Assembly: GCA_937910875.1 (NCBI GenBank)
Contig: CALENA010000151.1
Span: 1 to 64,000 of the forward strand
Source of the DNA: an uncultured Desulfobulbaceae bacterium
GTDB taxonomy: Bacteria > Desulfobacterota > Desulfobulbia > Desulfobulbales > Desulfocapsaceae
DNA: 64,000 bases
Reading direction: 5' to 3'
Within the stretch, counting starts at the first letter, position 1, and each line of letters begins with the position of its first letter. A program made the position numbers and the translations under genes. Under the pieces are notes generated by a model. That model worked only from the letters and a program-made list of their open reading frames with translations, ran no database searches and was not told the origin of the DNA. Positions 16,340 to 22,604 of the stretch are shown piece by piece.

Positions 16340-17986
16340 ATGGACAGCGACTTTCTTATCATCGGCACCGGCATTGCCGGACTTTCATTTGCCCTGCGTG
16401 TAGCTGATCTGGGCACGGTCACCTTGATCACCAAGAAAAAAAAGGCTGACACCGCCACCAATCTCGCCCAAGGTGGGATAGCCGCGGTCCTCAGCGCCGA
16501 TGACTCCAAGGAACTGCACGAGCAGGACACCCATGAAGCCGGCGCCGGGCTCTGCAAACCGGACGTGGTCAGGATGGTGGTCGACGAAGGACCAGACCGG
16601 GTCAGAGAGCTGATGGAACTGGGGGTCAACTTTGTCGAAAATGGTCAGGACTCGTCAGGTCTTGACCTGGGCAGGGAAGGGGGGCACAGTCGCCGCAGGG
16701 TCGCTCATGCCTACGACCTCACTGGCCATGAAATTGAACAGGCCCTGCTCAGTCAGATCAAGTCCCATCCTGGTATTACTCTCCAGGAAAATCACAGCGC
16801 CATCGACCTGCTCATGGCCACTGACGATCAGGGTGAACAATTCTGCGCCGGGGCCTATGTCCTGGACGAGAAGGCCCATCAGGTCAAGGTCTACCGGGCT
16901 CGACTGACCACCCTCTGTACCGGAGGCACCGGCAAGGTCTATCTCTACACCACCAACCCGGACATCGCCACCGGCGATGGTCTGGCCATGGCCTTCCGGG
17001 CCGGGGCAGTCCTGGCCAACCTGGAGTTTGTTCAGTTCCACCCAACCTGCCTGTACCACCCAAAAGCCAAGAATTTCCTTATATCTGAGGCTGTTAGAGG
17101 GGAGGGTGGCATTATCAAGGATCACAAAGGGGTGGCCTTTATGGTCAAATATGACCCCCGTCAGGACCTGGCCACCCGTGACACCGTAGCTCGTGCCATC
17201 GACCAGGAACTCAAGAGCAGCGGGGCCGACTGCGTCTTTCTGGATATTACGCATAAGAGCCGGGAATTCCTTGAAAAAAGGTTCCCTACCATTTTCAATC
17301 GCTGCCTGGAACTGGGCATTGATATCAGCAAGGAACCCATCCCTGTGGTTCCGGCCGCCCATTACATGTGCGGTGGGGTCGAGACAGACCTCTCAGGAAA
17401 GACTTCAATCAAAAATCTCCTGGCCCTGGGCGAGACCGCCTGTACAGGACTGCATGGCGGCAATCGGCTGGCCAGCAACTCCCTGCTGGAAGGAATCGTC
17501 TACGCCAAGCGGGCCGCGGACTACAGTCACCAGATCTGGCCCGTTCTGAGTCGCAAAAATTTGCCCGAGGTCGAGCCCTGGAAGGCAGGTGAAGCCGAGT
17601 CGATGGACGAAGAGATCCTTATTAATCACAACTGGGACCTGATTCGACGGATCATGTGGAACTATGTGGGAATTGTCCGCCGGGTCCAGCGCCTGGAACT
17701 GGCCCGTAGCAGAATGCAGGAGATCGAGCAGGAGATCGAGCAGCATTACTGGAACTATCTGATCAGCCCCAACATGATTGAACTTCGCAATATTACACTT
17801 ATTTCCCTTTTGATTATCCAGGCGGCACTGGCGCGGAAGGAATCAAGAGGGCTCCATTATCTCATTGATTTTCAGACACAAAAAGATGAGTTCCTCCATG
17901 ATACCCGTTTTTGCAAGACCGACCAGGGCAAGAACTGGCAGATCAGGCAACTTAGCGCATCCACGTTAAAGAGACCACAGGCATGA
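16340..17986 (+). CDS. nadB: L-aspartate oxidase
   Basis: This 548-residue FAD enzyme oxidises L-aspartate to iminoaspartate for quinolinate and NAD synthesis. In anaerobes fumarate probably serves as acceptor. The FAD-binding IIGTGIAGLSFAL is at the N-terminus, with NLAQGGIAAVL and EFVQFHPTCL following, then the active-site region HYMCGGVETD and GLHGGNRLASNSLLEG. The ATG at 16340 gives the normal N-terminus; an in-frame GTG at 16313 lies inside parS. The TGA overlaps the ATG of the next gene (17983), so the two are coupled. Confidence 0.95.
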   Translation: MDSDFLIIGTGIAGLSFALRVADLGTVTLITKKKKADTATNLAQGGIAAVLSADDSKELHEQDTHEAGAGLCKPDVVRMVVDEGPDRVRELMELGVNFVENGQDSSGLDLGREGGHSRRRVAHAYDLTGHEIEQALLSQIKSHPGITLQENHSAIDLLMATDDQGEQFCAGAYVLDEKAHQVKVYRARLTTLCTGGTGKVYLYTTNPDIATGDGLAMAFRAGAVLANLEFVQFHPTCLYHPKAKNFLISEAVRGEGGIIKDHKGVAFMVKYDPRQDLATRDTVARAIDQELKSSGADCVFLDITHKSREFLEKRFPTIFNRCLELGIDISKEPIPVVPAAHYMCGGVETDLSGKTSIKNLLALGETACTGLHGGNRLASNSLLEGIVYAKRAADYSHQIWPVLSRKNLPEVEPWKAGEAESMDEEILINHNWDLIRRIMWNYVGIVRRVQRLELARSRMQEIEQEIEQHYWNYLISPNMIELRNITLISLLIIQAALARKESRGLHYLIDFQTQKDEFLHDTRFCKTDQGKNWQIRQLSASTLKRPQA

Positions 17987-20412
17987 CGATCCACCAGATT
18001 GAGGCGTCAGAGGCCAGTCGACGCTGTAACCCCGACGACTTCAGTTTCGAGAATACCGCAGAACTCGAAAAACTGACCCAAATAATCGGCCAGGAACGGG
18101 CCCTGGAGGCCTTGGATTTTGGGATCAGCATCCGCCGTCCCGGCTTTAACCTCTTTGTCATCGGACCTGAAGGGAGTGGCCGACACAGCGTCATTCAGTC
18201 ATTCATAGCCAGCCGTGCCCAGGAGGACAGTCTACCCAGCGACTGGTGCTATGTCCAACAGTTCAAACAGCCACACAGTCCACTGGCCCTGAAATTTGAG
18301 TCCGGCATGGGCCACGTCTTCAAACACGATATCGATGAATTGATCAGCACCCTTAAGACCACTCTGCCACGAGTCTTTGAAGGCGAAGCCTATCTGACCC
18401 GAAACAACAGAATCAACCACACTCTGCAGCAAAATATTGAAAGGCTCTATACCGAGGTTGAAAACCGGGCAAAGAACGAAAAAATAGCCGTGGTCAAGAC
18501 CGAAGACGGCATCTTGTTCACAGCCATGGACAAACAGGAAACTGCCTTAAATCTCAATGAATTCCTCAAACTTGACGACCAGACACGTAAACGGTTCGAG
18601 ACCCTGATTGAAAAATATCAGGAAGAGCTTCAGCAGGCCATCCAGACGATCAGCATACTCAAGCGAAAAGCAGAAGAGGACAAACAGCAGCTCAAACAGA
18701 ACGCGGCTAGAGACACGGTTTTCCCGTTGATCGATACCCTGAAACACAAGTACGGACTCAACAAACCAACCCTCCAATATCTCCAGGAGGTGGAGCAGCA
18801 GATCATCGAACAGGTAGACAGCTTTTTTCGTCAGCCCGAAAGTGAAAATCCCATCATTCAGCTGGTCTCGCAGCCCCCCTCCTTTGACCAGTACAAGGTC
18901 AACGTCCTGGTTTCAAACCAGGAGCCAGGGGCACCGGTGATTTATGAAGACCTGCCCAACTATCCAAACCTGCACGGCCGCATCGAACAGCAGGCAACCA
19001 TGGGCGTCCTCAGTACCCATTTCTCACTGATCAAGCCAGGGGCACTGCATCGGGCCAACGGTGGCTATCTGATCATTGATGCCGCCCGTCTCCTCAGCCA
19101 GCCCTTTGCCTATGAAGGACTCAAGCGGACCCTGCGCTCCGGTCAGATCCGTATCGAACCGGTGGAGCGATTGCAGGGCCTGATGAGCACGGTCACCCTG
19201 GAACCACAACCCATCCCCCTCGACATCAAGGTCATCCTGGTCGGCGATCCATGGGTCTACTATCTGCTCAACCATCACGATCCTGAGTTCCCGGCACTGT
19301 TCAAGGTCCAGGCCGAATTTGAGGAAGATATGAATCGCACCACGAACAGCCTGCAACTGTTCGGCAGCCTGATCGGCACCATCGCCCGGGACCAGGAACT
19401 GCTTCCCCTGCATCGCACGGCTGTGGCCCGGGTCATTGATGAGGCCGGGCGCAGGGCAGGGGACCACGACAAGCTCTCTCTCCATATCCGCGAACTGGCC
19501 GATCTGATCCAGGAGGCCGACCACCTGACCCGGAATAAACTGCACTCCGTCATCAGCGCCATGGAGATCAACGAGGCCCTGACGGCCACCCGTCGTCGCG
19601 CGGGCCGAATACGCGACCGGATCGCCGAAACCATTGACCTGGAAATCCACCGGATCGAGACCAGCGGCGCCAGAATCGGTCAGGTCAACGGCCTGTCATT
19701 CATCGATCTCGGCAACGACATGTTCGGCTGCCCAACCCAGATCACGGCCACGACCCGGCCCGGTGACGGTGAAATCGTCGATATCGAACGGGAAGTGGAA
19801 CTGGGCGGCCCAGCTCACTCCAAAGGAGTACTGATCCTTGGCGCCTTCCTGGGTTCCCATTATGCCCGTTCCATCCCATTGAGTCTGCACGCCAGCGTGG
19901 TCTTTGAACAATCCTATGGCGAGGTCGACGGCGACAGCGCCTCCTGCGCCGAACTCTGCGCCCTGCTCTCATCCCTGGCCCAGATCCCGATCAAACAGGG
20001 CCTGGCCATCACAGGCTCTATCAGTCAGTTGGGCAATATCCAGGCCATCGGCGGGGTCAATGAGAAGATCGAGGGCTTTTTTGATCTCTGCCAGAGACGG
20101 GGTTTCAGTGAAGAGCAGGGGGTGATCATCCCAGCCACCAATATCCGCCATCTGATGCTCAAGCAGGAAGTGGTCGATGCCATTGCAGCCGGGACCTTCA
20201 GTCTTTACGGGGTGGAACACGTAGACGAGGCCATTGAGCTGCTGACTGGTCTTCAGGCCGGAAAGCGTGATTCGGAGGGCAACTATCCCGAAGGCTCCCT
20301 CAACCAGCTTATCGAAGAGACCCTGTTCCGATTTGCCTCTGATATCCAGGAATTCAAAAAAAGCAGCGAGTGCGAGTGCAGAGAAGAAGACAACGTGGAA
20401 GAAAGCTGTTAA
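17983..20412 (+). CDS. Lon-related ATP-dependent protease (LonC/YcbZ-like)
   Basis: This 809-residue protein has an N-terminal Lon-related region with Walker A-like GPEGSGRHSV, a long coiled-coil insertion (about residues 150-270), an AAA+ half with GGYLIIDAARLL and RTTNSLQLFG, and a C-terminal Lon protease domain. The catalytic serine lies in VDGDSASCAELCALLS and the lysine in GGVNEKIEGFFDLC. It lacks the Lon N-terminal LAN domain. It probably degrades damaged or specific cytosolic proteins. It overlaps nadB by 4 bp (ATGA). Confidence 0.9.
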   Translation: MTIHQIEASEASRRCNPDDFSFENTAELEKLTQIIGQERALEALDFGISIRRPGFNLFVIGPEGSGRHSVIQSFIASRAQEDSLPSDWCYVQQFKQPHSPLALKFESGMGHVFKHDIDELISTLKTTLPRVFEGEAYLTRNNRINHTLQQNIERLYTEVENRAKNEKIAVVKTEDGILFTAMDKQETALNLNEFLKLDDQTRKRFETLIEKYQEELQQAIQTISILKRKAEEDKQQLKQNAARDTVFPLIDTLKHKYGLNKPTLQYLQEVEQQIIEQVDSFFRQPESENPIIQLVSQPPSFDQYKVNVLVSNQEPGAPVIYEDLPNYPNLHGRIEQQATMGVLSTHFSLIKPGALHRANGGYLIIDAARLLSQPFAYEGLKRTLRSGQIRIEPVERLQGLMSTVTLEPQPIPLDIKVILVGDPWVYYLLNHHDPEFPALFKVQAEFEEDMNRTTNSLQLFGSLIGTIARDQELLPLHRTAVARVIDEAGRRAGDHDKLSLHIRELADLIQEADHLTRNKLHSVISAMEINEALTATRRRAGRIRDRIAETIDLEIHRIETSGARIGQVNGLSFIDLGNDMFGCPTQITATTRPGDGEIVDIEREVELGGPAHSKGVLILGAFLGSHYARSIPLSLHASVVFEQSYGEVDGDSASCAELCALLSSLAQIPIKQGLAITGSISQLGNIQAIGGVNEKIEGFFDLCQRRGFSEEQGVIIPATNIRHLMLKQEVVDAIAAGTFSLYGVEHVDEAIELLTGLQAGKRDSEGNYPEGSLNQLIEETLFRFASDIQEFKKSSECECREEDNVEESC

Positions 20413-20421
20413 AAAAAACGA

Positions 20422-20952
20422 ATGCGTTATACCCTGCTCATCCCCAATCTGATTTCGTCCAGTCGCCTGGTCCTGGCTTGGTGGTTCCCCCTGGCCCCGG
20501 AATACCTGTGGCTGTGGATCATCATGGCCAGCGCCTTCAGCGACCTGCTGGACGGCTTTCTGGCCCGGCGCTGGAACAGCCAGACCTGGCAGGGTGGGCT
20601 CCTGGATGCGATCACCGACAAACTCTTCGTGCTCGTGGCCATGCTCACCTTTGCCGCGGCCGGCAAATTTGCCTACGGCTGGATTCCCCTGCTCTTGAGC
20701 CGCGATCTGACCGTGGCCGCAGTCGCCGCCTACGCCGCCTGCAATCGTTCATGGCATTCATTCTACAACATGGGCTCCCGGTTGACAGGAAAACTGGCCA
20801 CCGCAGTCCAATTACTGTTCCTGGCCTCTGTCGCCGTGTGGCCGCAGATGGCACTGCCGGCCCTGATCCCGACCATCGCCGTCAGCCTCTTGGCAGCCCT
20901 GGATTATGGCCGTGTTTTTGGCCGGACCCTGCGCCAACTGGACAAAAAGTAA
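20422..20952 (+). CDS. CDP-alcohol phosphatidyltransferase family protein
   Basis: This 176-residue membrane protein carries the family catalytic motif: DLLDGFLARR, then about eight residues, then GGLLDAITDK (DxxDGxxAR-x8-GxxxDxxxD). Such enzymes join a CDP-activated lipid or alcohol to a second alcohol, releasing CMP. It follows the Lon-like gene by 9 bp and precedes a CarS-type cytidylyltransferase fusion. The three-step logic (activate, transfer, dephosphorylate) suggests a dedicated phospholipid headgroup pathway; the substrate is unknown. Confidence 0.85.
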   Translation: MRYTLLIPNLISSSRLVLAWWFPLAPEYLWLWIIMASAFSDLLDGFLARRWNSQTWQGGLLDAITDKLFVLVAMLTFAAAGKFAYGWIPLLLSRDLTVAAVAAYAACNRSWHSFYNMGSRLTGKLATAVQLLFLASVAVWPQMALPALIPTIAVSLLAALDYGRVFGRTLRQLDKK

Positions 20953-20986
20953 CCAGTTAACACCTCAACTCCGCTAAAGGAGATGA

Positions 20987-22393
20987 ATGAAGACAGTCAT
21001 TACAATCCTCCTTTTTCTTCTCTGGCTCAACCTGATGCCGCCCCTGGCGGCCCTGATCTTCGGTTCTTGGGGAAAACGCCCCCTCGACAACAACCAAACC
21101 TGGATTGACGGCTCCCCCATCTTCGGGGCCAACAAGACGGTCCGGGGCATCCTGGCCAGCCTGATCGGCGGAACCCTGGCCGCGCCCCTGCTGGGTCTGC
21201 ACTGGTGGGACGGCACCCTTATTGCAGCCCTGGCCATGACGGGCGATCTGGTCTCCAGCTTCTGCAAGCGGCGCTTCAAACGAAAGAGCGGCGAAGACGT
21301 CTTTTTCGTCGACCAGGTATTCGAAGGACTCCTTCCCCTGCTCTTGCTCAAAAGCCGCCTGGGGCTTTCCACAGCCCATATGCTGGACACCCTCCTGGTC
21401 TTTGTCGTCCTGGCCTATTTAAGCTCCCGCTTCTGGCACTATATCCTCTTCAAACCGACCGCGCGCGACTATCCGACGACAGTCCGCTCCACGGTTCGCC
21501 GCCATGAATGGCGGGCCTGCCATGTCCCCCTGGCGCGCTGGAAGACCCTGCTCAACCTGACCAGCTTTCTCTCCAACCGCTTCCTGTTTACCTGGTTTTT
21601 CACCCTGACCGGTCTCTATGAGCGGGGGATCAACAACACCCTCAACATGCAGATCCGCCGCCATCATTTACATTTTGCCAACTTGCCGCCTGCCTTTGCC
21701 GGATTCCGCATCCTGCTCCTGACCGACCTTCACCTCGACAGCCTGAGCCAGTTAACCGAGCATATCGTCAACAAGATCAAAGAACTCGATTATGATCTCT
21801 GTCTGATCGGCGGAGATATCCGCATGGAAATTTATGGTCCGACCGCTCCCTGCCTGCGCCACTTGCGCCATCTGGTCCCGGCCATCAACTGTCCGTACGG
21901 GGTCCTGGGCATACTCGGGAACCACGACTCCATCGAGATGGTCCCGGACCTGGAAGAGGCCGGGATCACCATGCTCATCAACGACTCCTGGGAGATCAAA
22001 AAAAACGGAGACAGCCTCTGGATTGTCGGGGTTGACGATCCCCATTATTATAAAATGGCCAATGCGGACGAGGCCTACCGCCGCGTGCCCGAGGATGTCT
22101 TTTCCATTTTTCTGGCCCACTCACCCGAAGCCTATGAGGCCGCGTCCGCGCACAACGCCGCCCTCTACCTCTGCGGCCACACCCATGGCGGCCAGATCTG
22201 CCTGCCCAACCAGCGCCCACTGATCACCAACAGCAGCGCCCCACGCCACACGGCGGCCGGTCGCTGGCAGTACCAGCAGATGACCGGGATCACCAGTCGC
22301 GGCACCGGTGCCTCATCGGTCCCGCTGCGCTTCAACTGCCCCGGCGAAATCCTGCTCATCACCCTGGACCAACTCCCACAACAACCAGACTGA
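20987..22393 (+). CDS. CarS-like CDP-lipid synthase fused to metallophosphoesterase
   Basis: This 468-residue protein has two clear parts. Residues 1-165 form a membrane domain like CDP-archaeol synthase CarS, with SPIFGANKTVRG and GDLVSSFCKRRFKRKSGED. Residues about 230-460 form a calcineurin-type phosphoesterase with LLLTDLHLD, LIGGDI, LGNHDS, LAHSPE and CGHTHGGQI, the full dinuclear metal set. The ribosome site AAAGGAGATGA precedes the ATG. With the upstream CDP-alcohol transferase it could activate a lipid with CTP and remove a phosphate later. The fusion is unusual; the substrate is not known. Confidence 0.8.
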   Translation: MKTVITILLFLLWLNLMPPLAALIFGSWGKRPLDNNQTWIDGSPIFGANKTVRGILASLIGGTLAAPLLGLHWWDGTLIAALAMTGDLVSSFCKRRFKRKSGEDVFFVDQVFEGLLPLLLLKSRLGLSTAHMLDTLLVFVVLAYLSSRFWHYILFKPTARDYPTTVRSTVRRHEWRACHVPLARWKTLLNLTSFLSNRFLFTWFFTLTGLYERGINNTLNMQIRRHHLHFANLPPAFAGFRILLLTDLHLDSLSQLTEHIVNKIKELDYDLCLIGGDIRMEIYGPTAPCLRHLRHLVPAINCPYGVLGILGNHDSIEMVPDLEEAGITMLINDSWEIKKNGDSLWIVGVDDPHYYKMANADEAYRRVPEDVFSIFLAHSPEAYEAASAHNAALYLCGHTHGGQICLPNQRPLITNSSAPRHTAAGRWQYQQMTGITSRGTGASSVPLRFNCPGEILLITLDQLPQQPD

Positions 22394-22394
22394 T

Positions 22395-22604
22395 CACATA
22401 ATCAGTGGGAATGACCACGTCCTTCGTGGCCAGAACCCCGCCTATGGGCATGCCATAGCCCAGATGAGCATCGGGCATGATCGCCACATGGGAGTGAATA
22501 AAGGGCAGATTGGCCAGGTTACGGGCCTGGGCCATGGCCCCTTCTTCCATGTCATCCAACCACAGCTTGATCGGCTTCGGCTCACTCCTGACAATCTTTT
22601 CCAT
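22395..22604 (-). pseudogene. Truncated 5' remnant of rtcB-type RNA ligase gene
   Basis: The frame reading left from 22604 encodes MEKIVRSEPKPIKLW, then ARNLANLPFIHSHVA and MPDAHLGYGMPIGGVLATK. This is the N-terminus of an RtcB-family RNA ligase of about 400 residues. Homology ends after KDVVIP, where the GVDIGCGM block should follow. The frame then runs into unrelated residues and stops near the 3' end of the phosphoesterase gene. The rest of rtcB is missing, so this is a deletion remnant. Confidence 0.75.

Follow-up and report, generated by a model that had tools for sequence, protein, structure and literature searches.

The synthesis of CDP-lipids is a central step in membrane building, and CarS, the CDP-archaeol synthase, has mostly been treated as an archaeal enzyme. 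What, then, is the role of a CarS-type domain in a bacterium of the Desulfobacterota, in which it is part of the same polypeptide as a phosphoesterase and is encoded beside a CDP-alcohol phosphotransferase (CAPT)? The window that we analysed is a stretch of 64,000 nucleotides from an uncultured, sulfate-reducing Desulfobulbaceae bacterium (assembly GCA_937910875.1, contig CALENA010000151.1), whose genome is 2.36 Mb in size and 92% complete. Three forward-strand genes form one run in this window, encoding a LonB-like protease, the CAPT and the 468-residue fusion protein (Table 1). The preliminary description of this locus had put the fusion directly after the CAPT gene, and both reading frames lie as it placed them, with the CAPT starting 9 nt past the stop of the protease gene and the fusion starting 34 nt past the stop of the CAPT. 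The order protease, CAPT, fusion is shared with the nearest relative (G001), probably Candidatus Desulfatifera sulfidica (locus L084; Desulfobulbales, Thermodesulfobacteriota), in which the fusion protein is 76% identical. The protease adjoins the CAPT-fusion pair within the genus only, and is found near the CAPT alone in one other genome. The reverse strand at 22404-22604 holds an rtcB remnant in which the first 67 of 393 residues are left, 87% identical to an intact neighbouring gene in Ca. Desulfatifera sulfidica (L036:2604-3785).

Table 1. Features of the gene run, in positions of the window, and loci of the related stand-alone genes in other genomes
Feature	Positions or loci	Strand	Basis
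LonB-like AAA+/S16 protease, upstream in the gene run	17983..20412	+	profile matches
CDP-alcohol phosphotransferase (CAPT), 176 aa, DxxDGxxARx8GxxxDxxxD intact	20422..20952	+	PF01066 and motif
Probable ribosome-binding site (aaggagat) of the fusion gene	20977..20984	+	sequence
CarS-phosphoesterase fusion protein, 468 aa	20987..22393	+	profiles, AlphaFold model, structure comparison
CarS-like membrane domain, aa 1-155	20987..21451	+	model, structure match, conserved residues
Basic linker with helices, aa 156-221	21452..21649	+	model, conserved motif
Calcineurin-type metallophosphoesterase domain, aa 222-468	21650..22390	+	profile, structure match, motifs
Stand-alone DQxxE CarS with PHP phosphoesterase	L168, L171-L176, L186-L199		

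Residues 5-153 of the fusion match the CarS-like family PF01864 (E 2.5e-13; 50.9 bits, with a cut-off of 22), and the only chain of solved structure matched by the fusion sequence is the CarS of Aeropyrum pernix (ApCarS, 5GUF). An AlphaFold model of the fusion, built from 16 relatives and with a mean pLDDT of 82, gives this domain five helices (residues 2-25, 52-69, 73-96, 106-125 and 129-154), and residues 1-150 of the model superpose on the 5GUF crystal structure with a Z score of 15.4 over 143 residues, at 2.4 A and 26% identity. In the C-terminal half, residues 240-401 match the Metallophos family PF00149 (34.9 bits; cut-off 21.5), residues 235-464 of the model superpose on Mre11, GpdQ, Rv0805 and many others of the calcineurin fold (Z up to 17.4), and the metal-ligand motifs DxH (247-249), GD (276-277), GNHD (311-314), H378 and GHTH (397-400) are essentially invariant among 87-90 sequences. 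The earlier proposal that a CarS-type membrane domain is joined to a complete phosphoesterase is thus borne out, and structure prediction recovers both the CarS fold and the calcineurin fold. The linker between them (residues 156-221) is modelled with low confidence at residues 155-210 and carries a conserved RxWRxCH...LN motif. Given five helices and a basic linker following the fifth, the positive-inside rule predicts that the phosphoesterase is probably cytosolic, on the same side of the membrane as the CarS active site.

The best named-family profile for the phosphoesterase half is YaeI (90.7 bits, far under the curated cut-off), and the LpxG equivalog profile gives 74.6 bits against a cut-off of 350. 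All of the metal motifs are shared with these YaeI/LpxG-type enzymes, from which the domain differs in falling far below their cut-offs and in lying C-terminal to a CarS domain. Profile scores of this kind leave the substrate of the phosphoesterase unsettled. A phosphoesterase without CarS, 44% identical to the C-terminal half of the fusion including part of the linker, is encoded in another genome (G010, L053:1559-2509), where it lies between glycosyltransferase-like genes.

The CarS half combines strong conservation with one marked change. Its CTP- and metal-site residues D34, K50, T51, GD86-87, KRR94-96 and D109-Q110 are near-invariant in about 90 sequences, and it shares with archaeal CarS the five-helix fold, the GD...KRR...DQ core and the K-T and Asp loop residues. 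CdsA of bacteria (PF01148) belongs to the same CTP-transferase superfamily. In archaeal CarS, archaeal-type bacterial CarS (L165-L170) and CdsA, the metal is bound by the Asp of the upstream GD and by a second Asp in a DQxD or DRxD motif (D219 and D249 in TmCdsA; PMC7018664), and D249 is stated to be conserved across all CDS sequences (PMC7018664). When these positions are transferred from TmCdsA onto the fusion by our own mapping, the first Asp of the dyad (D219, here D87) is kept in 90 of 90 fused sequences, whereas the second is replaced by F or L, rarely by P or I. One residue further on, a Glu (E113) is invariant, giving a DQxxE motif in all 90. Because the position of the D249-type Asp is hydrophobic and the Glu comes one residue later, catalytic activity is not to be presumed; Glu113 may, by its position in the alignment, take over the role of metal ligand. 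Retention of the remaining site residues indicates that the domain is strongly constrained and probably active, yet it is no ordinary CarS: it scores 64.2 bits against the NCBIfam equivalog for CarS of archaeal lipids (PRK04032), for which the cut-off is 148.

The fusion is present in 18 of the 58 genomes of the order, host included, and the copies in relatives are 47-76% identical to that of the host. Within the family of the host its distribution is patchy (12 of 37 genomes). In a scan of named genomes, from which 80 loci were kept out of at least 490, CarS and phosphoesterase were encoded in a single frame in 78; of the two exceptions, one is split by a frameshift (L136) and the other ends with its contig too early to judge (L150). 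These intact fusions, together with the recurrence of the same frame in 17 further members of the order, rule out an assembly artefact or a chance reading frame. Carriers include Desulfobulbaceae, Desulfocapsaceae, Syntrophobacteraceae (Desulfacinum, Desulfosoma and Desulfoferrobacter), Desulfarculales and others within the Desulfobacterota (Thermodesulfobacteriota). Three separate metagenome-assembled genomes of Thioalkalivibrio (Gammaproteobacteria; L147, L148 and L151) also carry the fusion and form one branch outside the rest, possibly as a result of horizontal transfer. In a tree of CarS domains, in which two archaeal-type rows occur twice, every fused sequence lies on one side of a branch with 100/100 support once the truncated loci L148 and L150 are counted as fused, and this tree is most simply read as showing that the fusion arose once. 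Fused domains form one clade that lacks the archaeal-type motif; ApCarS falls among them on a very long branch, and its placement is unreliable. We found no paper on the CarS-phosphoesterase fusion, or on the bacterial CarS-PHP pairs described below, in the literature searched.

Is the CAPT part of the same system? It belongs to PF01066 (CDP-OH_P_transf; E 1.1e-16), its catalytic motif is present in 24 of 24 orthologs, and it is about 31% identical over the best stretch to another CAPT of the host. PgsA/ClsA-type enzymes are its best profile matches, and it falls far below their equivalog cut-offs (best NCBIfam match pgsA, 61.8 bits; cut-off 109). Orthologs (E < 1e-38) occur in 12 of the 58 genomes, and 11 of those 12 hold the fusion. 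Within the host's family, counted as a table of 37 genomes, an ortholog is present in 11 of 12 genomes with the fusion versus 1 of 25 without it (p 1.6e-7, uncorrected for kinship); the Fisher tables over all genomes were computed with n=59, the host being counted twice where 58 is correct. The two genes adjoin in 22 of the 80 named loci, with the CAPT upstream in 15, directly downstream in six and two genes downstream in one, and many carriers outside the host's family have no CAPT ortholog. Neighbourhoods beyond the pair vary among genera, which identifies the pair as the unit, though an optional one. These data support the functional link between CAPT and fusion that was suspected at the outset; synteny in relatives, which the preliminary description had named as a test, holds to the extent that the CAPT recurs beside the fusion, but as a neighbour that can be dispensed with. 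A radical SAM gene lies directly 5' of the fusion in 13 of the 80 loci (L132:1653-3071 and 12 others).

Coupling to a phosphoesterase, by contrast, is obligate, and it holds in a second arrangement too. When stand-alone CarS proteins of this type were used as queries across the phylum, 14 such genes were recovered from 395 genomes, and in all 14 a PHP-family phosphoesterase gene lies 3' on the same strand, immediately in 13 and after a small inserted gene in one. These stand-alone proteins, a sister group of the fused ones, are also of the DQxxE type, with the Asp position hydrophobic in nearly all and Glu next to it, and their profile scores the fused CarS domains at 112-140 bits. They resemble the fusion in pairing the same CarS type with a metal phosphoesterase, and differ in being encoded by two genes and in that PHP is not of the calcineurin fold. 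One type of CarS thus has a metal-dependent phosphoesterase as its partner in two arrangements, either a calcineurin-type domain in the same chain or an unrelated PHP protein encoded in the same operon, and this double coupling is the strongest functional clue in our analysis. At least three genomic contexts were seen for the pairs: some follow the gene for an MsbA-like ABC transporter, some are flanked by rsmG-like and lptD genes, and some follow an efflux operon (the rsmG and efflux labels were given by eye from sequence). The frequent position of the pairs beside MsbA-like or LptD genes suggests a link to the outer envelope.

The host is well supplied with standard phospholipid genes. It has its own ordinary CdsA, two further CDP-OH_P transferase genes of the PgsA/PssA type, and PgpA, seen as a fragment at a contig end; it also has LpxI, which is found in 56 of the 58 genomes. 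Within the order, 52 of the 58 genomes hold PgpA, as do all 30 of the carriers tested in the rest of the phylum. Replacement of CdsA by the fusion is ruled out by the presence of CdsA, and the phosphoesterase does not fill a vacant PGP phosphatase step, given the presence of PgpA, although it may act redundantly there. The module is thus accessory, an addition to a full standard lipid set in which no missing step is filled. It had been suggested that CTP activation, head-group transfer and dephosphorylation were here assembled into a compact, complete pathway. The parts are indeed present, but the idea of a complete pathway is weakened, because the host has all of these housekeeping enzymes and because the CAPT is optional where the phosphoesterase is obligate.

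The reading that we favour, with middling confidence, is of a bifunctional accessory phospholipid enzyme that combines CTP-dependent activation of a lipid phosphate with hydrolysis of a phosphate-containing intermediate in one branch. In this scheme we infer both reactions, their side of the membrane, which substrates are used and in what order the steps follow. The CarS domain would act as a CTP:lipid-phosphate cytidylyltransferase at the cytosolic face, converting a phosphatidic-acid-like ester lipid and CTP to CDP-lipid and PPi, and the tethered phosphoesterase would hydrolyse, at the same face, a lipid intermediate of that branch which contains phosphate. Where a CAPT is present, it would add a head group at the expense of the CDP-lipid. 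This group is probably a phosphorylated alcohol, as when PGP is made, and the leftover phosphate would then be stripped by the phosphoesterase; where no CAPT is adjacent, a housekeeping CAPT would carry out the head-group step. The PGP phosphatases PgpA, PgpB and PgpC are not homologous to one another. They are distinct enzymes that catalyse one reaction (PMC9385802), and may by analogy serve as a precedent for unrelated phosphoesterases, such as the calcineurin-type and PHP-type partners of CarS, sharing one role. A phosphoesterase that acts after the CAPT nevertheless fits poorly with its being the obligate partner while the CAPT is optional.

That same asymmetry makes a serious rival of direct hydrolysis by the phosphoesterase of the CarS product or by-product, CDP-lipid or PPi, which would set the level of CDP-lipid or pull the reaction forward and would need no CAPT. 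Coupling is obligate in both arrangements, and the families near the phosphoesterase include LpxG, a pyrophosphatase of nucleotide-diphosphate lipids. LpxG is a Mn2+-dependent, membrane-associated calcineurin-like enzyme (PMC4807358). However, a synthase and a hydrolase of one bond in a single chain would be futile unless regulated, and no regulatory domain was seen; moreover YaeI outscores LpxG, with both far below their cut-offs. We consider this alternative possible but distinctly less probable than a shared branch with hydrolysis of an intermediate.

Somewhat less likely again is a phosphoesterase that acts upstream, cleaving a phosphodiester or pyrophosphate lipid to a phosphomonoester that CarS would re-activate, in head-group exchange or lipid recycling. 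GpdQ and Rv0805, both phosphodiesterases, are among its relatives by fold, YaeI is named as a phosphodiesterase, and DgkA or an LplT/Aas-like acyltransferase is encoded near some loci. But these neighbours occur at only five of 80 loci each and may reflect plain synteny, and calcineurin-fold enzymes span many substrates.

A role in lipid A, in which the phosphoesterase would serve as an LpxG-type UDP-diacylglucosamine hydrolase and CarS would either anchor it in the membrane or have a function of its own, is very improbable. The LpxG profile match and the MsbA-like and LptD genes that often adjoin the PHP-linked relatives would agree with it, but the LpxG score is under its cut-off, LpxI is already present in the host and nearly all relatives, and the fusion is too patchy in the family for a core lipid A gene. 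The retained active-site residues of CarS also argue against a dead anchor.

Least credible is the pathway for an unusual ether or isoprenoid lipid that had been raised on the strength of the CarS name and fold: GGGP synthase (PcrB, PF01884), for which a search had been proposed, was found in none of the 58 genomes whereas all seven controls (archaea and Bacillus) matched, the PlsA-type marker DUF2229 had no match in the host and is unassociated with the fusion (7 of 18 carriers, p 0.78), and the CarS clade lacks the DQxD of archaeal-type CarS.

The fusion is a real, conserved and uncharacterised side branch of the CarS/CdsA kind. It is set apart from archaeal CarS by its low identity, its DQxxE motif, its attached phosphoesterase and a host without GGGP synthase, and from CdsA by the replaced second Asp and by the separate, normal CdsA of the host. 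The name CDP-archaeol synthase is misleading for it, and this label in a bacterial genome gives no warrant for archaeal-lipid synthesis. This branch of bacterial CarS is found across the phylum, has an altered metal motif and is always accompanied by a phosphoesterase of one of two unrelated forms, which points to a series of reactions not yet described. More speculatively, and with considerable doubt, the DQxxE clade could be something other than a usual CDP-archaeol or CDP-DAG synthase: a separate class of membrane enzyme, so far undescribed, that acts on lipids with CTP. Its reaction would depend on a phosphoesterase of its own, drawn on at least two occasions from unrelated folds (the calcineurin type through fusion, the PHP type through an operon), in a new envelope-lipid side branch in the Desulfobacterota. 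The branch is testable in the cultured Desulfopila aestuarii, Desulfogranum japonicum and Desulfacinum hydrothermale. A second, archaeal-type CarS of 195 residues, with DQxD, is encoded at two further loci (L169 and L170, in G342 and G322). At L169 it follows same-strand genes for a UbiA-family prenyltransferase, a CAPT and a phosphatidylserine decarboxylase, a cassette that is, from its gene content, a candidate for a secondary PE-type lipid route in the Desulfobacterota.
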